Source: Bacteroidota bacterium
Lineage (GTDB): Bacteria; Bacteroidota; Bacteroidia; Flavobacteriales_E; Vicingaceae
Reading direction: 5' to 3'
Assembly (NCBI GenBank): GCA_016183805.1
Contig: JACPDX010000013.1
Span: forward strand, 124,001 to 188,000
DNA length: 64,000 nt
Shown here: positions 11,384 through 24,361 of the stretch, in pieces
How positions within the stretch are numbered: the first letter of the stretch is position 1
Layout of the letters: every line of letters begins with the position of its first letter
Program-made: the position numbers and the translations under genes
Notes under the pieces: generated by a model
The model's database searches: none
What the model saw: only the letters and a program-made list of their open reading frames with translations
Told to the model about the DNA's origin: nothing

Positions 11384-13246
11384 ATGGAAAAAAAATACGA
11401 TGTCATAGTTGTTGGAGCTGGTCATGCTGGTTGTGAAGCTGCTGCTGCTGCTGCAAATTTAGGCTCAAAAACATTGTTGATTACTATGAACATGAATGCA
11501 ATTGCACAAATGTCGTGTAATCCTGCAATGGGTGGCGTGGCAAAAGGTCAAATCGTAAGAGAAATTGATGCTTTAGGTGGTTATTCGGGTATTGTTAGCG
11601 ATAAAAGTGCTATACAATTTAAAATGCTCAACAAATCGAAAGGTCCTGCCATGTGGAGCCCAAGAACACAAAACGACAGGATGATGTTTTCTAACTTGTG
11701 GCGTTTAAAATTGGAACAAACCAAAAATTTGGATTTTTGGCAAGACATGGTTACTGAATTAATTATTAAAAATGGAGCCTGTTGCGGGGTAAAAACACAA
11801 ATTGGAATTGAGTTTAAATCTAATGCTGTTATATTAACCAATGGCACCTTTTTAAACGGTTTGATTCACATTGGCGAAAAACAATTTGGTGGTGGTAGGG
11901 CTGGCGACAAACCCTCTACAGGAATTACTGAACAATTAATTGCAAACGGATTTACTTCCGGACGAATGAAAACCGGAACACCACCGAGAGTAGATGGAAG
12001 AAGTTTAGATTACTCTAAAATGGAGGAACAACCAGGAGACGAAAAGCCATCGAAATTTTCATTTTCAGCTGAAACACAACCCTTATCGAAACAACGTAGT
12101 TGCTACATTACCTATACCAATGACGATGTTCATGATATTTTAAGAACAGGTTTCGAACAATCACCCATGTTTACAGGTCGTATTAAAGGGTTAGGACCAA
12201 GATATTGCCCATCCATAGAAGATAAAATTGTACGGTTTTCGGAGCGTAACAGACATCAATTATTTATTGAACCTGAAGGTTGGGACACGGTAGAAATATA
12301 TCTAAATGGATTTTCTACTTCTTTACCGGAAGATGTTCAAAATAAAGCCATGCGATTAATTCCAGGGTTTGAAAATGCCAAAATGTTTCGACCCGGATAC
12401 GCCATTGAATACGATTTTTTCCAGCCCACACAATTAAAAAGTACCCTGGAGACTAAAGGTATTAACAACCTATACTTTGCAGGACAAATTAATGGTACAA
12501 CCGGATATGAAGAAGCGGCAGGACAAGGTATTATTGCAGGAATTAATGCTCATCAAAAAATCAATGAAAACGAATCTTTTATTTTAAAAAGAGACGAAGC
12601 TTACATTGGTGTTTTAATTGATGATTTAGTTACCAAAGGAACTACAGAACCTTATCGAATGTTTACTTCAAGAGCAGAATATCGTATTTTATTACGTCAG
12701 GATAATGCCGATATTCGATTAACGCCTTTATCGAATGAAATAGGTTTAGCAACCGATGAGATGTTGCAAAAAGTCTTAACAAAAAATGAACAAGTAGCTT
12801 CTGTTATCAAACAATTTGAAGAAACCAGTTTAAATCCTGAGGATGTAAACGAATATTTGGAAACACAAAATTCATCATTAATAAAACAAAAAGTTAAAGC
12901 AAACACAGTGGTTACCCGACCAAACATAACCATTACTGATTTAATAAATTCCAGTAAAAAACTAGCTGAAAAACTATCAAATTACAACAATGAAGTGTTA
13001 GAAGGAGCTGAAATCTTGATGAAATACAACGGGTATATTGCTCGTGAAAAAGAAGTTGCAGGTAAAATGATGCGTTTAGAAAACATTAAAATTCGTGAAA
13101 ATATAGATTATAAAAAACTTTCTTCACTTTCTGCAGAAGCAGTAGAAAAATTGACCAAAATAAAACCAAGCACTATTGGGCAAGCAACTAGAATAAGCGG
13201 AATTTCTGCATCCGATATTTCGGTGTTAATGGTTCACATGAAGTAA
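11384..13246 (+). CDS. mnmG: tRNA uridine-5-carboxymethylaminomethyl modification enzyme MnmG
   Basis: The FAD-binding half of the MnmE-MnmG complex, which installs the cmnm5 group on U34 of several tRNAs. The N-terminal dinucleotide fold is [21 protein letters not shown] (first 20 residues of the fold start at about 6). The family signature [20 protein letters not shown] in pieces is at 45-65, the second FAD segment [19 protein letters not shown] at about 366-384, and a C-terminal helical tRNA/MnmE-binding domain covers 550-620. Length 620 is typical. The gene stands alone between two parS-like sites, the downstream palindrome beginning within its stop codon. Confidence 0.97.
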
Positions 13247-13522: not shown

Positions 13523-14974
<1,452 letters not shown>

Positions 14975-15047: not shown

Positions 15048-15310
15048 GTGAAATTTCTTACATTATTAATTGGTGTTTCTTTAATTTTACTTTCTTGTCA
15101 ATCCGATAAAAATAGCGAATCATCTTCTATTACTTTAGAATCTGACAACCAATCTTTAAGAGAAATAAAAACAATGAAAGAATTTGTTAATACTATAAAA
15201 ATAGACTCCACATGGTTCACCTATTAGTTAAAAAGGCAAAAGCACAAAATATTTCTGTAAAAGAAATATTGAAAAGTGATGTTGAATATATGGTTTTCAC
15301 AAATGAATAA
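15048..15310 (+). pseudogene. Frameshifted small lipoprotein with one ~40-residue repeat module
   Basis: A GTG start at 15048 gives a signal peptide with a lipobox (LILLSCQ) and a short Ser/Asp-rich linker. The frame then reaches KIDSTW and ends at TAG 15225-15227. Shifting one frame right after that Trp (from CAC at 15218) restores the homologous sequence LLVKKAKAQNISVKEILKSD and ends at TAA 15308-15310, overlapping the next gene by ATGAATAA. The joined product matches the repeat module in the lipoprotein at 19768-20211 and in the C-terminus of the next protein. This is either a recent frameshift, a sequencing error, or much less likely a programmed shift. No slippery heptamer is evident at the junction TGGTTCACC. 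Confidence 0.7.
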
Positions 15311-17153
15311 TACCACCTCAAGTAAAACACCAAGATATTCAATCAAAAATCACATGAATAATCCCTCTGTCTTTTATAAGATGCTTTTTACTCTCTTATT
15401 AATTTTCGTATTTACTCTTTCATTTCAAATTTACGCCCCAATAAATTTTAAATTTTTAAATTCTGATCAAGGAATGCACGCTTTAATGGCGGCTAATTTT
15501 GATTTTAAGCATGGCTTTTATTACTGGGGGCAGAATAGACTTGGTAGTATATTACCATTACTAGCTTCTTTTTTAATTAAAATAAACATCTCTCCACTAT
15601 GGGCAGTTTCATTGGTTCAATATGCTTTTTTATTGGGCTTATATATACTTTTATTTAAACTTATTAATAATTACGTTTTAAAGTTATCCGCTGCAGTTTT
15701 TTTGTTTTTACCAATAGTTACACATATAGAATTATTAAATATTGGTCATCCATACGCCCCCCAATTATTTTTAAGTGTTTTACTATTTTACTTGTCTAAG
15801 TTAATTTCTAGCCATTTTTCACTTAAAAATATTCTTATAATATCTTTGTTTTGGATTATTAGTTTATTAGATATTTGGGTGTCAGAAATTTCCTTTATCG
15901 TTATTTTTATTATCGTTTGCTTTACACTTATTTTCTTATCTAATAATCAAAAATCAACAAAAGATAAAATTCTTCATCTAATACGAACCCCATTTTTTTT
16001 ATTACTACCAGTTAGTTTATTGGGTATATTCTATATTTACAGCAAAATAAAAATTCATTTTAAAGACCCTATTTTCGAAGCTTATGGTATAAATAGTATA
16101 GACAAAACTTACGAAGCTTTTACCACTCATTTTGAACGACTTTACCATACTATTTCGTTTTCAAATAATTTTTTAAACATAAACGCATTTACCGTCTTGT
16201 GTGTATTAGTTTTTATATATTTAGTAATAATCAACATTTATCAACATAAAAAACACATACTTAATAAAATAATAAGCAAAAATTATTTTATTTTTTTTAC
16301 GATAAGTATCGCAACATTTTCAGCGATTAATTTTACACAATGGGCAGGAATAGAAAATTATCCTCATAGATATTATGTGTTTAGTTACATTTCTTTTATT
16401 ACAGGCTTACTGCTTTGTGTTGATGATTTAACTCTAAATAAAAAAAATCATTTTATACTATTTATTACATTATTTACCTCCATTATTGGAGGATTAAGCT
16501 ACATTAAACTTGACAAAGAACAAACAAGATTTAAAATTGACAAAGAAGCCTATAAAACTTTAACATCACTCAACCAATCAACATTTATTGGAAATTATTG
16601 GTTCACTTATGTTATGGGGTCATATAATGCCGCTAAGATTACTTCAATTGTACCAGATCAATCCTATATAAGGAATCCACATCAATTAGATAAGGCATTT
16701 GAAAATGCTGAGGTCTTTTTAATTAAAAATAATTGGCTTAAAAGCTTTCCTGATACTATTTTACAATATGGAAACATGTTGATTAAAAATAAATTTAAAA
16801 CTGATATTATTATAGGGAATGCAACTGTTCACCAATATATTAATGAAGATTTATTAATAGAAAAAGATATCTTAAAAGAATTAAGGGATAAAATACTTGA
16901 AAACAAACAACAAGTTGATTTGATTCATAAAAAAGCAAAGCTTAATCATGTTACTTTTGATGATGTGCTGGAAAAAGATTTGTTAATATTATTGAAAAAA
17001 GAAAAAAAGATTAGAACATTAGAAAACAGCATACGAAGAAATAATAATTGGATGCTGTTAATTTTGGAAAAAGCCAAAAAAAGAAAAGTATCAATAGAAG
17101 AAATGATTAGGCTTGATGCTGAATATATGGTAAATCAAAATAATAATCAGTAA
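15303..17153 (+). CDS. GT-C-like polytopic membrane protein with C-terminal repeat module
   Basis: About eleven hydrophobic segments over residues 20-400. The first extramembrane loop contains NSDQGMHALMAANFDFKHGF, whose acidic residue near the end of TM1 is placed as in GT-C glycosyltransferases (ArnT/PMT-like, lipid-linked donor). A soluble part follows, and the last ~95 residues hold two copies of the unnamed repeat, the better one NNNWMLLILEKAKKRKVSIE followed by EMIRLDAEYM. The ATG at 15303 is preferred over a GTG at 15276 because it overlaps the upstream stop. Transferase activity is inferred from topology only. The tail is a fusion I do not know in GT-C enzymes; it probably faces the periplasm or cytoplasm as a protein-protein module. 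Confidence 0.7.
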   Translation: MNNTTSSKTPRYSIKNHMNNPSVFYKMLFTLLLIFVFTLSFQIYAPINFKFLNSDQGMHALMAANFDFKHGFYYWGQNRLGSILPLLASFLIKINISPLWAVSLVQYAFLLGLYILLFKLINNYVLKLSAAVFLFLPIVTHIELLNIGHPYAPQLFLSVLLFYLSKLISSHFSLKNILIISLFWIISLLDIWVSEISFIVIFIIVCFTLIFLSNNQKSTKDKILHLIRTPFFLLLPVSLLGIFYIYSKIKIHFKDPIFEAYGINSIDKTYEAFTTHFERLYHTISFSNNFLNINAFTVLCVLVFIYLVIINIYQHKKHILNKIISKNYFIFFTISIATFSAINFTQWAGIENYPHRYYVFSYISFITGLLLCVDDLTLNKKNHFILFITLFTSIIGGLSYIKLDKEQTRFKIDKEAYKTLTSLNQSTFIGNYWFTYVMGSYNAAKITSIVPDQSYIRNPHQLDKAFENAEVFLIKNNWLKSFPDTILQYGNMLIKNKFKTDIIIGNATVHQYINEDLLIEKDILKELRDKILENKQQVDLIHKKAKLNHVTFDDVLEKDLLILLKKEKKIRTLENSIRRNNNWMLLILEKAKKRKVSIEEMIRLDAEYMVNQNNNQ

Positions 17154-17166
17154 CAAGTGTGTTTGC

Positions 17167-17214
17167 TTTTACCCACTCTCAACACACCTTCATTAACTTC
17201 AGCAGTCATTTGTC
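17167..17214 (-). pseudogene. Remnant of a second, divergent pdxA 3' end
   Basis: The 48 bases align without gaps to the 3' end of pdxA at 23243-23290: 37 of 48 identical by hand count, 9 of the 11 differences transitions. Read leftwards, the codons give QMTAEVNEGVLRVGK against QMDAEINENVLKVSK in the intact gene, so the match is conserved at the protein level. Just before the aligned part the frame hits stop codons. This is a decayed end of another pdxA allele, lying directly after the GT-C-like gene. Confidence 0.7.
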
Positions 17215-17396
17215 ATTACTTGTAATGGCTATGCAAATCAATTCACAAGAGTTTTATATATCCATAGTGCTCTATGGAAATTAACTAGAATTAAAAAAAT
17301 GTAGTATATTGATAATTAAACCAATAGAATTAAAAATTAGGAAACAGATTGAAATTCGATAATTTTGTTACATATCTTCTTACAATTTACAATTAT
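17215..17396. other. Intergenic region before the metallophosphoesterase
   Basis: No gene is supported here. It contains a 7-base-pair hairpin TCCATAG-TGCT-CTATGGA (17261-17278), which may end transcription from the GT-C-like gene, and otherwise AT-rich sequence leading to the ATG at 17397. Confidence 0.4.
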
Positions 17397-18284
17397 ATGA
17401 AAAAGAATACTAGTCGTAATTTTATTAAATCCTCCATATTGATTTTTCTATTACTATTTTTATACGAGGTTAAAGCTCAAAGTAACGATACGTTGAAATA
17501 TGTTTTTTTTGGACACATTTATCAATGGGGTGACCAAACTAAGGTTGACTATAGAATTGAAAATATGGATTTATCGCAGTTTGATAGAATATGGTTGGGA
17601 GGAGATGTTTGTTCTGAGGCTTCTTTGGATTATTCTACACTATCCCATCTAAATGATTTATTTGATCTCGATAAACCAGGTAATCATTGGACGTTAGGAA
17701 ATCATGATGCGAGAAATGGAAATATAGAATGGATTACTTCGTTTACTAAAAGACCGACTTATTATAGTTATAGTGAAAATAATATAACCACAATGGTGAT
17801 GGATGGAAATCTCTCCCCATTAGATTGCGAAAACCTAAATAAACAATTTAAAATAATAAAAAATGTTTGTGATACCATAAATTCAGGAAGGCTTATTGTA
17901 CTGGTTCATCATGGTATTTATAACAATGTGCCCGGTGTTGCAAACCCTTCTTCGTATGGGCATTCTCTTTTAAAAAATTGGATATCGAATTGTTATGATG
18001 ATACAGCAACATACCTAAAATCTATCTATCCGATGTTAGTTTCTGTAAAAAATAGAGGAATAGATGTGATACAAATTATGGGGGATGTTGGGGCGAATCC
18101 TAATGCTAAATCTTATTACGGTATTTCAAATGATGGGGTAGAGTATTTTGGATCAGGAATAAACAATACCTATAATATGCTTCTTGGAATTCCTATTACA
18201 AGTCCGGACTTAATTTTAATTTTTAAACATGTTCTTTCAACAAATGAGTTATTTTGGGATTTTGTTGATTTAGATTCTTTCTGA
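17397..18284 (+). CDS. Secreted metallophosphoesterase-like protein with degenerate metal sites
   Basis: An N-terminal signal peptide (about 10-28, ending EVKAQ) suggests export. The body resembles calcineurin-like phosphoesterases: LGGDVC near residue 70, GNHDARNG near 105, LIVLVHHG near 175. The first motif, normally D-x-H, reads F-G-H, and the final G-H-x-H appears as MGDVGA, so at least three metal ligands are missing. Activity may be lost or the family may use another set of ligands. The start at the ATG of MKKNTSRN is chosen because the longer frame from a TTG at 17349 adds residues in front of a proper signal peptide. Convergent with the T9SS protein; partner genes unclear. Confidence 0.65.
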   Translation: MKKNTSRNFIKSSILIFLLLFLYEVKAQSNDTLKYVFFGHIYQWGDQTKVDYRIENMDLSQFDRIWLGGDVCSEASLDYSTLSHLNDLFDLDKPGNHWTLGNHDARNGNIEWITSFTKRPTYYSYSENNITTMVMDGNLSPLDCENLNKQFKIIKNVCDTINSGRLIVLVHHGIYNNVPGVANPSSYGHSLLKNWISNCYDDTATYLKSIYPMLVSVKNRGIDVIQIMGDVGANPNAKSYYGISNDGVEYFGSGINNTYNMLLGIPITSPDLILIFKHVLSTNELFWDFVDLDSF

Positions 18285-18296
18285 TAAAAATAGCTT

Positions 18297-19763
18297 TTAA
18301 TTAATGATAATCTTTCCTTTATGAGTGGACATACTAGTTTTGATGGTATATACATAAACCCCTATTGACAATAATGAGTCAAAATAAATAGTTCCGGATA
18401 ATTGATTAAAAACTTCCTTTTTAACAATTTTACCGGTTATATCAAATAGGGTAAATTCAAACGATTCTTCTTGTGACCCTTCATTTGGAAGAGTTATTTT
18501 TACAAATGTCCTTGCCGGATTTGGGTATATCATATATTGGATAGTTGTATCAATAGGTGGAGAAATAATTTCGTCTAACAATTTTATAACCTCCCCAGAA
18601 GCATCTAATTTTATAAAATAAAAATCGAAATCAAGTCCATTTCTGCTGTTAGAAGAACCTAAAACAGCAATAGTACCATCGTTTAAAAATTTACCACAAT
18701 TTCCGTATTCAGAAAAATTACCTCCAAAATTATTTTCCCAAACCACTGTACCACTAGAGTCAGTCTTTAAGCAATAAATATTCGGAATTTCATCTAATGT
18801 AAAACTACTTGATGTTCCAGTCAGTAATAAATTTCCATCCACATCCATGTCTATATCATTTCCATATTCGTAACCAACTCCACCATAATTTTTTCTCCAA
18901 ATTTCATTACCAGCAGAATCTATCTTATTTAAAGTAAGGTCAAAACTGCCATTAGTATTATTTAGGCTTGACCCAACAAAATAAAAATAATTATTACCAT
19001 CAGTTACTATTCTTTTGCCAAAATCATGGTTAATGCCACCAAAATATTTTCTCCAAATTTCATTACCCATCTTATCTGTTTTGAGTAGTATAATTTTAGA
19101 AGCATCATTACTTATATATTCGGATACATGTGCAATTTTATCTGCAAAAGAGCTGGTGTTTACTAGAAGTAAAATGGAGGAATCGGAGCATTCTATAACA
19201 TCCATACCAATATCATTGTTATTTGTATCATAAAATTTTTCCCATTCTTTTACACCATCTTTATTGATTTTAATTAAAAAAGTAGCTCCTGAAACCCCTG
19301 CAGCTCGATTTAAGCCAGTAATCAAAAATCCTTTATCAAATGTTTCAATAGTATTAAAAATATAGTCATCATCATTACCACCGAAATAGGATGTCCATAA
19401 AATAGCACCTGCAGTATCGTATTTTGTTACAAACCCTCCTGTTCTCGTTCCTGGAGCATCCCAAGAATGACCGATTACAAGAAGGTTTTGATCGGATATA
19501 GAAATAATTTTTGTAGAAATATCATGATGTATTCCCCCCCACTCAACATGATACAAATGCTGATAGTCGGAACTTACTTTTACTAAGGTCACATCTTCGC
19601 TTCCTGATCCAAAACTCCTGACTGTTCCAGTTAAATAGAAACTATTATTGTTTTCACAAAAATAAATTCCATTATCATTTTTTTCACCACCAAAATATTG
19701 GGCACTTATTGTGCTAGATAACCAAAGTAAGGATATTAAAAAGATTAGCTTACGATAAATCAT
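18297..19763 (-). CDS. Secreted propeller-like repeat protein with T9SS type A sorting tail
   Basis: A signal peptide (about 1-21, LLWLSSTISAQ) is followed by about six repeats of roughly 50 residues built on W-x3-F/Y-G-G-x3-D and ending G-x-L-L-x-G, for example WRKNYGGVGYEYGND. This pattern is typical of beta-propeller cell-surface proteins. The last ~80 residues are a type A sorting domain: YPNPARTFVKI, then FDITGKIVKKE, then GVYVYTIKT near the end. The protein is therefore secreted by the type IX system and anchored or released. The ligand is unknown. It lies 4 bases from the repeat lipoprotein gene on the same strand and likely shares its transcript. Confidence 0.85.
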   Translation of the reverse strand: MIYRKLIFLISLLWLSSTISAQYFGGEKNDNGIYFCENNNSFYLTGTVRSFGSGSEDVTLVKVSSDYQHLYHVEWGGIHHDISTKIISISDQNLLVIGHSWDAPGTRTGGFVTKYDTAGAILWTSYFGGNDDDYIFNTIETFDKGFLITGLNRAAGVSGATFLIKINKDGVKEWEKFYDTNNNDIGMDVIECSDSSILLLVNTSSFADKIAHVSEYISNDASKIILLKTDKMGNEIWRKYFGGINHDFGKRIVTDGNNYFYFVGSSLNNTNGSFDLTLNKIDSAGNEIWRKNYGGVGYEYGNDIDMDVDGNLLLTGTSSSFTLDEIPNIYCLKTDSSGTVVWENNFGGNFSEYGNCGKFLNDGTIAVLGSSNSRNGLDFDFYFIKLDASGEVIKLLDEIISPPIDTTIQYMIYPNPARTFVKITLPNEGSQEESFEFTLFDITGKIVKKEVFNQLSGTIYFDSLLSIGVYVYTIKTSMSTHKGKIIIN

Positions 19764-19767
19764 TTCA

Positions 19768-20211
19768 TTATTTTAATGACTCTTTAAGGCGTTTATTGTA
19801 AATAAATTCTGCATCATTTAATAAAACGACATCAACAGGTGTTTGTGTCTTTTCGGCTTTTTTCTCTATTTCAGACATCCATGCAGCGTCAGCTTTTATC
19901 GCATTTTTTATTTCTTCTATTTGATATTCGGGTGTTTTTTTTATTTTTTCATTATATGTCCATTCTGCATCCATTTTTATCATTTCATCAATGCTAATAC
20001 CTCTTTTCTCAGCTTTTTCTTTTATTATTTCCATCCATTTCAGGTCAGCTTTTATCACTGCAATATAATCTTCAACTGTTTCCGGTTCTTTTTTTACCGT
20101 TTGTGTTTGATTTGTATTAGCGTTTTGATCTACTGATTGGTTCTCAGAATCTGAAGAACTACATGCGAAGATAAAACCTAAAGATGCAATTAAAATCCAA
20201 TTTTTTTTCAT
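19768..20211 (-). CDS. Lipoprotein with two ~40-residue repeat modules
   Basis: 147 residues: a lipoprotein signal with FIFAC at Cys17, an Asn/Gln/Thr-rich linker (about 18-45), then two copies of a helical repeat. The first centres on KADLKWMEIIKEKAEKRGIS followed by IDEMIKMDAEW, the second on KADAAWMSEIEKKAEK followed by VLLNDAEFIYN. The same module occurs in the frameshifted lipoprotein at 15048 and at the C-terminus of the GT-C-like protein at 15303. I do not recognise it as a named domain. It sits between the T9SS propeller gene and the CotH/beta-helix lipoprotein gene, all leftward, and is probably anchored in the outer membrane. Confidence 0.75.
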   Translation of the reverse strand: MKKNWILIASLGFIFACSSSDSENQSVDQNANTNQTQTVKKEPETVEDYIAVIKADLKWMEIIKEKAEKRGISIDEMIKMDAEWTYNEKIKKTPEYQIEEIKNAIKADAAWMSEIEKKAEKTQTPVDVVLLNDAEFIYNKRLKESLK

Positions 20212-20240: not shown

Positions 20241-23204
20241 TTAATTAAGTAGTTTATTTTCAAAGGTAATAGATGATCCTGATTCAACAAAAGAAGTGGT
20301 ATCAATTTTATTTAAATAATAGTTTTTCACATCAATAGTCGCAGAACCATATTCGGGCTTTTTTTGAAAAAGAGAAAAACCCAATTTACAATTTTCTATC
20401 TTTATGTTGTTAATCTTCACTGAAGATCGGTCTTTCGATGCAATCCCAATGTTTGCGGTATTAATATTGGTGTTGTTAATTAAAACTGTTGAACCTTCTC
20501 CACACGAAATTCCTTTATCTCCTGCATTTTTAACATTGCAGTTATTTATTTCGATAAAACTACCGGAAAAATCCATTCCATCATTACCAGTATTCATAAA
20601 CTTTGTGTCAACAACTTTTCCTTTACAAAAATCAGCATCAAATCCATCTCCAAAAGTATTGGTTATTGAGCAATTATAGACCTCAAAATTAGATTGAATA
20701 ATATTTAATGCATCCTCACATTTATTATTGTTAATAATACAGTTCTTTAAAAGAACATTCGCCTCATAAAAGGTTACAGATCCAGTTAGTGTCCATCCAA
20801 AATAATCAAATGTATTTAACCCTTCAAATATAACATAATTTAACCGTGAAGGAGAAGATGGGTGTAACACGGTAAATCCTTTTCCAGTTCCATCGGTTGA
20901 TGTAATTTTTATAGGTGCTTCTTTTGTTCCATTCATATGAATAGGCGAGTAACTTAAAAATCCTATGCTATTATTTAAAACAAGTTCAACACCTGATTCA
21001 AAAGTTACTGTATATCCTTTTGGTATAACAATATTGGTTTTAACGATATGTTTTCCCTTAACAAAGGTTATTTGTTTGTCTTTTATTTTATAAAAAGGAG
21101 AGTTGTTTGTTAGTGTGCCTTCAAACAATTTAGAAGAAGAAATGTTTGTAGTTGGTCTTGGCCAAGAAATAATTTTTGAAGAATAAATGGTCTCCGAAGA
21201 ATCCTTCAATACTTTAAAATATAATTTGCTAGTTTTTACGGGGATAGTAACTTCTTTATCCGGTTGATTTTTAGAAAATGCTGGCAGTATTATTTCTGAA
21301 TTTATCCTGATTATACTGTCTTTATTTATTTTGGAGGCGTATCCTATAACTTTTATGGGCGAACAATGGAAATTATTTAAACTTAATAAAACAGACCCAT
21401 TCTCGTTTTGTTTCTGTAAATGGACATTTAAAGAAATGTTTTTAAATACGTTGTTTACCTCACAGTTGCTGTTTATCGACTCTGAAAGGTTATAATGTAT
21501 AGTATTGGCTTTCTGTTTATACGACTGAAGTTCTTTACGTATGATTTTTGTGGTATTTATTAAACTATTTTTATTATAGAAATAACCTTCAAAATCGGTT
21601 TGTAACAATTGACTTAGCGAATCTATTTTCGGAGTCAATTCTTTTAATGTTGTATTAATATATTTTTCGCTCGAATAAAGTGTTAAATAGTCAATATAAT
21701 AGCTTAAAAAATCAGGATTATCAAATAGATTGAGGTATAAATACCATTCTAAAGACTCTATTTTATGATTACCAGAAGTTTCATTTCCTCTTATTTTTGC
21801 TTCGTGCAAATCGAAACTTCCTAATCCGGTATAACAATCATAAACAATAGGTTCTAACCTAGATATTACAGGATTGTAGTAAAATCGTTGATTATGCCAA
21901 TTATTAGCATGGATAACATTAAAAATATCCATTAATGCATAATTTTTTGCCATTCGCTTAATATCAAGATAATTTTGAGAATCTTCTTCTCCTGTTTTGT
22001 ATTTATACATTAAATTTTGGGCAATTAAAAATTGATGTTTTAATTTCTCCGTCTTTAATGTTTTCTTTTCTTTAAAAGGGGAAATGGTTGAAGCATAGAA
22101 ATAAGGTCTAGCAGGATAAATATTATTTTTTTGATGATAAAGATTACATTCCCAAAAACCTTCTTCTGAAAATTTTAAGATAGGACCTTCCCTCCTGTTC
22201 TTAGACTCAAGTAATTGTTTCTCAAAATGTTCTTCCAGATTATAGACACCTAAATATACTCCATTAATAGAAACAGGAACATATTCCATTCTAGTAGTTA
22301 ATAAGTCCTCTTTCTTACATATTTCGTGAGCTACCCATTCATGTAAAAAATCTCTAATCAGGGGGGATTGAATAGAAAAAGATTTAAGCCCCATAAAAGC
22401 AGCATTTTCTTCCTTAATTTTTATTCTGTACGACCATTTATTACTCGTTAAATGGTCTGTCCAATCGCCTTTTAATCTAATGCCAATTTTATAGCTTTTG
22501 TCTTTATATTTTAGTACCCCATCAAACTCCTTTTTTGAATTATTGTCAAGTACTTTATTTTTAACAGCAAAATCTCTATATCTGGCTAATTCCTGATAAT
22601 CTTGTGAAGACAATTCGATTTTTATACCATTGTTATTTTTGTCTTTCTGAAAAGAGCTATTCTCAACATACCTAATTACCTCAAAATTATCAAAATAAAC
22701 AGGGTCTAATTTTTCACCACCATAATACACATAGATTTTAATACCACCTAATTTAGTGATGTCTTGTGGCAGTTTAATAGTCAAATTAATTTTTTCCCAT
22801 CCTGATTCATTATTTTTTGTATAACTAACTTTGTTTGCGTAATACAATTCATTATTTTTTGAAGAAATTACAATGGAACCATTTTTTCCAGAACTCTTTC
22901 TATAAACAGAGGCTTTGATAACTTCTCCCGGCTGAACATCATCAAATACAAGCCCCATCCCATAGAGATTGGATTGATTTAATTCACAAGAATAAGTACC
23001 ATCAAATGAATGTTTATCAGTTTGAATACCACCATCAAATAGAACATGGTTGGTCGTAAATTTTTTTTCTGCATTATCATAATCTTCTGCATCACAGAAT
23101 AAAATGGTAGTCCCATCAATTCCTTCCACAACTATATTCTCTTGACAAGAAAGAACACTAGTGATTACTAGAATCGAAAAGAAAGATTTAATCTTATTTA
23201 GCAT
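20241..23204 (-). CDS. CotH-kinase-like lipoprotein with C-terminal parallel beta-helix
   Basis: A 987-residue lipoprotein (lipobox LSCQ, Cys20) in three parts. Residues 25-185 look like a carbohydrate-binding-type beta sandwich. Residues about 195-560 resemble the CotH family, atypical protein kinases of spore coats: RLKGDWTDHL, KSFSIQSP, LHEWVAHEICKKED and VYNLEEHFEKQ, with VYDCYTGLGSFD as the probable metal/catalytic segment. After a linker, residues about 760-960 form a right-handed parallel beta-helix with repeated N-N-C and G-D-G-x-D turns. Transcription likely starts from the promoter inside the pdxA 3' end. Substrate unknown: kinase toward a surface protein, or glycan-related, are both open. 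Confidence 0.78.
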   Translation of the reverse strand: MLNKIKSFFSILVITSVLSCQENIVVEGIDGTTILFCDAEDYDNAEKKFTTNHVLFDGGIQTDKHSFDGTYSCELNQSNLYGMGLVFDDVQPGEVIKASVYRKSSGKNGSIVISSKNNELYYANKVSYTKNNESGWEKINLTIKLPQDITKLGGIKIYVYYGGEKLDPVYFDNFEVIRYVENSSFQKDKNNNGIKIELSSQDYQELARYRDFAVKNKVLDNNSKKEFDGVLKYKDKSYKIGIRLKGDWTDHLTSNKWSYRIKIKEENAAFMGLKSFSIQSPLIRDFLHEWVAHEICKKEDLLTTRMEYVPVSINGVYLGVYNLEEHFEKQLLESKNRREGPILKFSEEGFWECNLYHQKNNIYPARPYFYASTISPFKEKKTLKTEKLKHQFLIAQNLMYKYKTGEEDSQNYLDIKRMAKNYALMDIFNVIHANNWHNQRFYYNPVISRLEPIVYDCYTGLGSFDLHEAKIRGNETSGNHKIESLEWYLYLNLFDNPDFLSYYIDYLTLYSSEKYINTTLKELTPKIDSLSQLLQTDFEGYFYNKNSLINTTKIIRKELQSYKQKANTIHYNLSESINSNCEVNNVFKNISLNVHLQKQNENGSVLLSLNNFHCSPIKVIGYASKINKDSIIRINSEIILPAFSKNQPDKEVTIPVKTSKLYFKVLKDSSETIYSSKIISWPRPTTNISSSKLFEGTLTNNSPFYKIKDKQITFVKGKHIVKTNIVIPKGYTVTFESGVELVLNNSIGFLSYSPIHMNGTKEAPIKITSTDGTGKGFTVLHPSSPSRLNYVIFEGLNTFDYFGWTLTGSVTFYEANVLLKNCIINNNKCEDALNIIQSNFEVYNCSITNTFGDGFDADFCKGKVVDTKFMNTGNDGMDFSGSFIEINNCNVKNAGDKGISCGEGSTVLINNTNINTANIGIASKDRSSVKINNIKIENCKLGFSLFQKKPEYGSATIDVKNYYLNKIDTTSFVESGSSITFENKLLN

Positions 23205-23228: not shown

Positions 23229-23258
23229 CAAATTTATTTATTTTTTACTCACCTTCAA
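23229..23258 (-). promoter_or_regulatory. Promoter of the CotH-like lipoprotein gene
   Basis: On the minus strand TTG (23256-23258), a 19-base spacer and TAAATTTG (23229-23236) match the Bacteroidota -33/-7 consensus exactly. The -33 element is a leucine codon in the last codons of pdxA. The predicted leader is roughly 20 bases to the ATG at 23204. Confidence 0.6.
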
Positions 23259-24287
23259 CACATTCTCATTAATCTCAGCATCCATTTGGCGGTTTCTATA
23301 AATATCGATGGCTTGATAGATAGCTGAACGGAATGATTGTTCGTTAGCTATGTTTTTACCAGCAATATCGTAAGCCACTCCATGGTCGGGAGAAGTTCTA
23401 ATGATATTTAAACCAGCGGTAAAATTAACCCCTTCACCAAATGATAAGGTTTTAAAAGGGATTAAACCTTGGTCGTGATACATAGCGAGTATAGCATCGA
23501 ATTTTTTGTAATTGGCGGAGCCAAAAAAACCATCGGCAGGATAAGGACCAAAAACTTGTAAACCTATACTTTTTGCATTGTTTATGGCAGGAGTAATAAT
23601 TTCTTGTTCTTCTTTACCAATTAAACCGTTATCACCAGCGTGAGGGTTTAATCCTAAAACGGCTATTCGTGGACTGTTGATGGCAAAATCTTGAACCAGA
23701 CTTTTGTTTAAAATCTTTAGTTTTGAAAATATTTTGTCAACCGTTAAACTTTTTGAAATAGCCGAAACCGGAATATGGTTAGTAGCTATTCCAACTTTCA
23801 AATTTTCATTGTTTAACAACATCAACGATTCTCCTTCAAATTTCTCGGTTAAATATTCGGTGTGTCCGGAAAAATTAAATTGGTCGGATTGAATGTTGTC
23901 TTTATTTATTGGGGCTGTTACAATGGCATCAATTTTCCCATCAAACAAATCTTTGCAGGCTGCTTCTAACGATAAAAAAGAGTATTTTCCGGCAGCTACA
24001 GTAGATTTTCCGAGAGTTAATTCAACCTCTTCGCTCCAGCAGCTCACCATATTGGCTTTTTTAGGACTTGCTTCTTCTACTTTGGTAATTTTATTGAAAC
24101 TAAATTCTCCAGCATCAAGTGTTTTTCTATAATTGTTAGCCAATTTTGTAGAACCATAAACTATTGGTGTGCACAAATCCAAAATTTGCTGATCCATAAA
24201 CGTTTTTATGATTACTTCTAAACCTATTCCGTTGTAATCGCCAATGCTGATTCCAATTCTTATCTTATCGTTAGTTCTTTTCGTCAT
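23238..24287 (-). CDS. pdxA: 4-hydroxythreonine-4-phosphate dehydrogenase PdxA
   Basis: NAD-dependent oxidation of 4-phosphohydroxy-L-threonine in the DXP-dependent pyridoxal phosphate pathway; cytoplasmic dimer. Visible are IRIGISIGDYNGIGLEV at the N-terminus, VTAPINKDN, FSGHTEYL with the metal histidine, MYHDQGLIPFKTL with the second metal site, and IIRTSPDHGVAYDIAGKN near the C-terminus. The start at 24287 (MTKRTNDKIRIGIS) is chosen because the longer frame from 24329 runs into a word-repeat spacer (ATGACCATTGACCAATGGC). The 349-residue product is of normal length. A divergent copy of its 3' end lies at 17167-17214. Confidence 0.95.
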   Translation of the reverse strand: MTKRTNDKIRIGISIGDYNGIGLEVIIKTFMDQQILDLCTPIVYGSTKLANNYRKTLDAGEFSFNKITKVEEASPKKANMVSCWSEEVELTLGKSTVAAGKYSFLSLEAACKDLFDGKIDAIVTAPINKDNIQSDQFNFSGHTEYLTEKFEGESLMLLNNENLKVGIATNHIPVSAISKSLTVDKIFSKLKILNKSLVQDFAINSPRIAVLGLNPHAGDNGLIGKEEQEIITPAINNAKSIGLQVFGPYPADGFFGSANYKKFDAILAMYHDQGLIPFKTLSFGEGVNFTAGLNIIRTSPDHGVAYDIAGKNIANEQSFRSAIYQAIDIYRNRQMDAEINENVLKVSKK

Positions 24288-24361
24288 ATTTTTCTCGTTT
24301 TTGGTCATTAGCCATTGGTCAATGGTCATTTGTTGCTTCCAACTTCCAACTTCGGTCTCCT

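Follow-up and report, generated by a model that had tools for sequence, protein, structure and literature searches.

Where a hotspot of gene exchange lacks mobile elements, the usual explanation is a clean double exchange at the core genes that flank it. Islands that are integrated by tyrosine recombinases at the 3′ ends of genes displace the old 3′ end, which keeps its orientation and comes to lie at the distal end of the inserted DNA. After a Campbell-type single crossover with a partial gene, a complete copy and a 5′-truncated one are present in direct orientation. Core-gene hotspots without mobile elements have been described as common and as associated with recombination in the genes on either side (Oliveira et al. 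2017, PMC5635113). Homology-facilitated illegitimate recombination, in which an insertion is coupled with a deletion of similar size (mean 1 kb), has been described in three naturally competent species and in E. coli conjugation, and the same source mentions reported single crossovers with ligated linear DNA (PMC3240628). Our analysis of a 64,000-nucleotide stretch from a Bacteroidota bacterium of the family Vicingaceae (hereafter the window) revealed an interval between two core genes that is filled with variable cargo and appears to contain the displaced end of one of these core genes.

The mnmG-pdxA interval

The interval is enclosed by the following core genes:

11384..13246 (+): mnmG, the left core-gene border of the hotspot; matched in 46 of 46 family genomes and convergent with pdxA in relatives
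23238..24329 (-): pdxA (4-hydroxythreonine-4-phosphate dehydrogenase), the intact resident; PF04166 at E 2.9e-113 and TIGR00557; the sole pdxA found in the genome

Among named sequences the best matches of this pdxA were to MAGs labelled Flavobacteriales bacterium H5_BAC5 (90%) and SJ571 (83%). The two genes are convergent neighbours, with a gap of 193-312 bp in five out of five complete intervals of genus g4 and of 9.7-16.3 kb in all eight complete intervals of genera g1 and g13, the window included. Since the same flanking core genes hold differing cargo in relatives, the mnmG-to-pdxA interval is a cargo hotspot. The cargo comprises GT-C-like and other glycosyltransferase-like proteins, CotH kinases and carbamoyltransferase-like proteins; with the exception of CotH and AlgX these names are readings of the sequence and not database matches. 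In the closest congener, G001, the linkage is broken, as mnmG and pdxA lie on different contigs (L031, L153) and unrelated genes are found 3′ of pdxA. A Pfam scan of seven proteins, those of the blocks and pdxA, named no integrase or transposase, and no tRNA genes were found at 10-26 kb in the window.

The cargo of the window falls into two blocks. The left block, on the mnmG side, encodes for:

13523..14953 (-): FAD-dependent oxidoreductase (PRK07208 group, amine oxidase fold); 82% amino acid identity to a protein at the same position in G003, 87% to one elsewhere in G034
15048..15312 (+): small lipoprotein gene with a broken frame; a TAG stop at about 15227, the remainder in another frame
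15276..17153 (+): GT-C-like membrane protein; 28% identity over 493 aa to an mnmG-linked protein of G001

The right block, on the pdxA side, encodes for:

17349..18284 (+): weakly metallophosphatase-like protein; PF00149 at E 0.0012, below the cut-off; 72% identity in G068
18297..19763 (-): protein with a type 9 secretion sorting tail (PF18962, TIGR04183), convergent with the metallophosphatase-like gene, as is also the case in G068
19768..20211 (-): intact lipoprotein with two copies of a W...KA helical motif
20241..23204 (-): CotH kinase and beta-helix protein (PF08757, PF13229), located 33 bp downstream of pdxA

The GT-C-like protein had no Pfam or NCBIfam match. The lipoprotein of the left block is broken near 15227, and that of the same type in the right block is intact. 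Metallophosphatase and sorting-tail genes (17397-19763) form a unit that is common with G068, which belongs to another genus and carries it at a different site (L176 2525-4901, 67.7% nucleotide identity over 2,249 bp). Relatives of the CotH protein occur at 46-48% identity in hotspots of genus g13. The GC content of the block genes is 25.7-31.2%, compared to 30.4-36.1% for the core genes listed. As a means of dating the blocks GC composition was rejected, because the ranges of the left (25.7-30.8%) and right (29.5-31.2%) block overlap.

A C-terminal module shared by cargo proteins

A helical module of about 47 amino acids (I..n..Wm..i..KA..r.vs.eeM...A..m) is common to otherwise unrelated cargo proteins, namely GT-C-like, AlgX-like and CotH kinase proteins and others. 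With an iterated profile, 25 copies were detected at E<0.001; they lie in the window and in eight of 29 related loci, at the following sites:

17004-17147 (+) and 19768-20211 (-) in the window; L032, L033, L040, L154, L155, L156, L162 and L183: helical module

The module is mostly C-terminal; it is internal in two proteins, and the small lipoproteins are made up of two copies. No Pfam or NCBIfam family exceeded the cut-off for it in the proteins scanned, and a search of the window's own genome with the lipoprotein gave no match beyond this locus. In G001, the mnmG-linked cargo proteins (L153, 8772-10724 (+) and 15242-15715 (-), raw coordinates) end in a fascin-like beta-trefoil module (DUF7910/Fascin) instead, the DUF7910 match of the large protein being below the cut-off. 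The G001 set includes a protein homologous to the GT-C core of the window (28% identity), and its small lipoprotein is itself a fascin-like module. With the core kept, the tail swapped and the lipoprotein matching, the C-terminal module looks like a locus-wide tag.

A remnant of pdxA inside the cargo

Between the two blocks, directly behind the stop of the GT-C-like gene, we identified the following features:

17147..17214 (-): pdxA 3′ end remnant, with a 48 bp core at 17167-17214 and an in-frame extension (SKHTCY) to the TGA at 17147-17149; 37/48 identical, profile E 4.1e-4
17215..17245 (-): possible further decayed pdxA sequence, unproven; the alignment contains a 7-bp gap and is not significant by shuffles

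The core at 17167-17214 (-) aligns without gaps to the 3′ end of pdxA at 23243-23290 (-), and nine of the 11 differences are transitions. Both copies have the same orientation and are spaced 6,076 bp apart. The first-pass annotation had described this stretch as the remnant of a second pdxA 3′ end. Its coordinates, strand and counts proved correct on realignment, its reading of the remnant peptide as QMTAEVNEGVLRVGK was confirmed, and the shuffles, the tail profile of the genus and the frame reported below all support the description. The remnant frame reads QMTAEVNEGVLRVGKSKHTCY-stop and is open for six residues more (SKHTCY) up to the TGA. It has no functional translation, as only 21 codons are open and the frame is closed by stops immediately upstream.

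Equal scores among random shuffles, which the first-pass annotation had named as evidence that would speak against it, turned out to be rare. When the 195-bp intergenic stretch was compared to pdxA, its local score was equalled by one of 2,000 dinucleotide shuffles. When the whole 10-kb interval was compared to the whole pdxA, 37 identities in the best ungapped 48-mer were reached in one of 7,788 strand scans (3,894 dinucleotide shuffles of the interval, both strands), and the best such 48-mer in the real interval minus the remnant had 33. A profile of the pdxA tails of the window, G001, G002 and G003 was searched against 25,449 six-frame fragments from the window and 27 related loci. In this search the remnant obtained an E value of 4.1e-4 and outscored several true pdxA tails of other genera, and the next hit outside genuine pdxA genes followed at 0.73. 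A repeat finder listed the remnant with seed 7; with seed 10 it was absent among the 20 of 32 families shown. A DNA search with 17154-17400 in 46 family genomes returned the stretch itself and short weak matches in six other genomes. Similarity to pdxA is thus beyond chance and lies in the coding frame, as in a pseudogene remnant, and judged by its sequence the 48-base stretch is a dead leftover of a pdxA 3′ end. The extension past 17214 (about 25 bp, with the 7-bp gap) is suggestive; its score was met by 2115, 402 and 209 of 3,000 shuffles when aligned to the pdxA of the window, G001 and G003, respectively.

The position of the remnant has a counterpart in G003. In the window, the TGA of the remnant overlaps the end of the GT-C-like gene, whose stop is located at 17151-17153. 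In G003, a plus-strand GT-C-like gene (stop at 17879-17881) and the intact pdxA (stop at 17878-17880) likewise meet tail to tail and share two bases. The two GT-C-like genes themselves show no detectable relationship. Since the remnant frame meets the GT-C-like stop in the same way as pdxA does in G003, the spot of the remnant was very likely once occupied by a complete pdxA behind the GT-C-like gene.

Origin of the remnant

We consider it somewhat better than even (a probability of roughly 0.58) that the remnant (48-68 bp) is the tail of the resident pdxA, which was pushed out of place as the right block came in at this gene. The starting order would have been mnmG, FAD oxidoreductase, lipoprotein, GT-C-like gene and, on the opposite strand, pdxA, the last two with overlapping ends. 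The incoming DNA would have consisted of some or all of the 17.25-23.2 kb block joined to a pdxA end, with recombination taking place at pdxA. On the pdxA side a homologous exchange would have restored a complete pdxA, so that the present gene would carry the donor's tail. On the far side the joint would have formed just inside the old pdxA end and left the resident tail at the position of the remnant. This far joint might have been illegitimate, as in homology-facilitated illegitimate recombination, or the result of a single crossover with a circle; the latter would have left a 5′-truncated pdxA copy that shrank later. In either case the orphaned tail, being without function, would have been free to drift.

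The right side is favoured as the newcomer because the ends of the left block match those of G003, where an FAD oxidoreductase, a related lipoprotein (35% identity over 57 aa in the amino part, at the same position) and a plus-strand GT-C-like gene abutting pdxA are also found, while the metallophosphatase and CotH genes of the right block are absent from all three congeners. The metallophosphatase and sorting-tail unit of G068, the CotH relatives in g13 hotspots and the break in the left but not in the right lipoprotein gene point the same way. On the same grounds the claim of the first-pass annotation that the genes to the left arrived linked to a foreign pdxA is probably inverted. Its recombination boundary in the 13.5-23.2 kb block is supported; what did not stand is the proof of a foreign allele, and the polarity that it had assigned to the left genes is the less likely one.

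That proof had rested on conservative protein changes as a sign of a diverged allele. Of the ten differences between the remnant and the window's pdxA in 45 nt, seven fall on codon positions 1 and 2 and three on position 3, as decay would give. Among the three congener tails 12 of 14 differences, summed over three pairs, are at position 3; in functional tails elsewhere in the family the fraction at position 3 ranges from 0.17 to 1.0. As a test of decay versus a foreign allele the codon positions are suggestive and not decisive, given that functional family tails vary so widely. Loss of function followed by decay would nevertheless explain the amino acid changes of the remnant at least as well as a foreign allele, since A/G transitions in the first two codon positions yield just such changes (I-V, K-R, S-G and N-G).

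The best surviving alternative is that the left block entered anchored at mnmG and dragged along the pdxA end of its donor, in which case the right block and the present pdxA would be the older residents. The remnant is about equally distant from the tails of the window (10/45 differences), G001 (9) and G003 (11), as a diverged donor allele could be; this also counts against a displaced resident, since late decay of the window's own tail predicts closeness to the window's pdxA. Exchange in the left block has its own indication in the FAD oxidoreductase, which is closer to a protein of genus g13 (87%) than to that of its congener G003 (82%), so the left cargo was also exchanged. The g13 gene (L183 3260-4687 in G034) is located in a surface-gene cluster that does not adjoin mnmG or pdxA on its contig. 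Its identity exceeds the 66-78% seen for pdxA and mnmG between these genomes, and a transfer of the FAD oxidoreductase between genera is likely on the basis of these sequence comparisons. Against a late arrival of the left block speak its ends, which are common to window and G003, the absence of the right-block genes from the congeners and the excess of remnant differences at codon positions 1 and 2. Neither was a donor found: a search with an exact degenerate pattern in 46 genomes (the window's own, same genus and same family) for a pdxA with the remnant's tail, by which the first-pass annotation had hoped to trace the source, matched the remnant itself only. Comparison of pdxA to that of the three congeners G001, G002 and G003 in 30-codon blocks showed no mosaic, and a ten-gene ancestry comparison placed pdxA and mnmG of the window in one and the same sister relationship, with G001. 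In neither analysis was a foreign stretch seen in the pdxA or mnmG flanks. This result speaks against a resident tail displaced by the right block, as do the GT-C-like genes beside pdxA in the window and G003, which show no relationship, and the other intervals examined, none of which has a comparable remnant. Taken together, we regard entry of the left block as the last event as unlikely.

Alternatively, a short piece of the pdxA end may have been duplicated once without any import of cargo, such as by a repair error in which about 70 bp were copied beside the GT-C-like gene. In favour of this, the recognisable stretch is short, and its extension past 17214 lacks significance. Duplication leaves unexplained, however, why the copy should lie exactly at the cargo boundary, in gene orientation and directly against a convergent neighbour, as is the case for pdxA in G003, and it appears improbable to us.

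A broader version of the displacement might also be considered, in which cargo would repeatedly enter at the pdxA 3′ end, each time restoring pdxA and moving the old end out of the way. New surface genes would thereby be stacked onto old cargo without an integrase, and older scars in other species would have decayed past recognition. Tail profiles detected no second pdxA-tail remnant in 27 related loci, including the seven other complete cargo intervals, and a search for mnmG-end remnants in 27 loci and the window returned noise alone besides the real mnmG. One scar without recurrence does not make a system, and we give this idea little credence. Site-specific integration at the pdxA 3′ end, by an element that brought a substitute for the 3′ end and shifted the old one away, in the manner of integrases at some gene ends, would fit the geometry of same-orientation gene-end copies flanking 6 kb, but is very unlikely, as the Pfam scan of the block proteins contained no integrase and no second example was seen in other intervals. 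Chance similarity of an intergenic stretch is hardly credible: a family-wide profile of 20 tails, which is too broad, ranked the remnant first among non-pdxA fragments yet at a noise-level E of 3.4, and a scan of 14 intervals, each with the pdxA tail of its own genome, scored 52 at the remnant against 46 for an unrelated wrong-strand match in L033 (other values listed were at most 36), but the shuffled strand scans, the genus profile and the agreement of strand, frame, gene end and neighbour architecture all oppose it.

Comparison with known systems

As in islands integrated by tyrosine recombinases, an old 3′ end in the same orientation lies at the far end of the putative insert. In contrast to such islands, no recombinase is among the Pfam matches of the block, and the two ends are only 77% identical. 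A Campbell-type single crossover shares with the window a complete pdxA and a 5′-truncated copy in direct orientation; its truncated copy would initially have been longer than the 48-68 bp that are recognisable today.

Homology-facilitated illegitimate recombination, with one homologous end and one illegitimate end at which 3-10 bp of microhomology would be expected, would leave an old gene tail at the far junction, much as is seen here, but the insertions described for it, each with a deletion of similar size, average 1 kb (PMC3240628), while the copies in the window are about 6 kb apart. Like the core-gene hotspots described by Oliveira et al. (PMC5635113), the locus holds variable cargo between two fixed core genes and no integrase among the Pfam matches of its block. 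Unlike in the hotspots of that description, part of a flanking gene survives within the cargo as a remnant, and a clean double exchange would leave no such trace. The remnant is a single case that adds detail to a known kind of genome change and represents no new mechanism or system. Trapped in the cargo, such a remnant of a flanking gene is physical evidence of at least one additive import, in which new genes were placed beside old ones, and it marks the joint between them.
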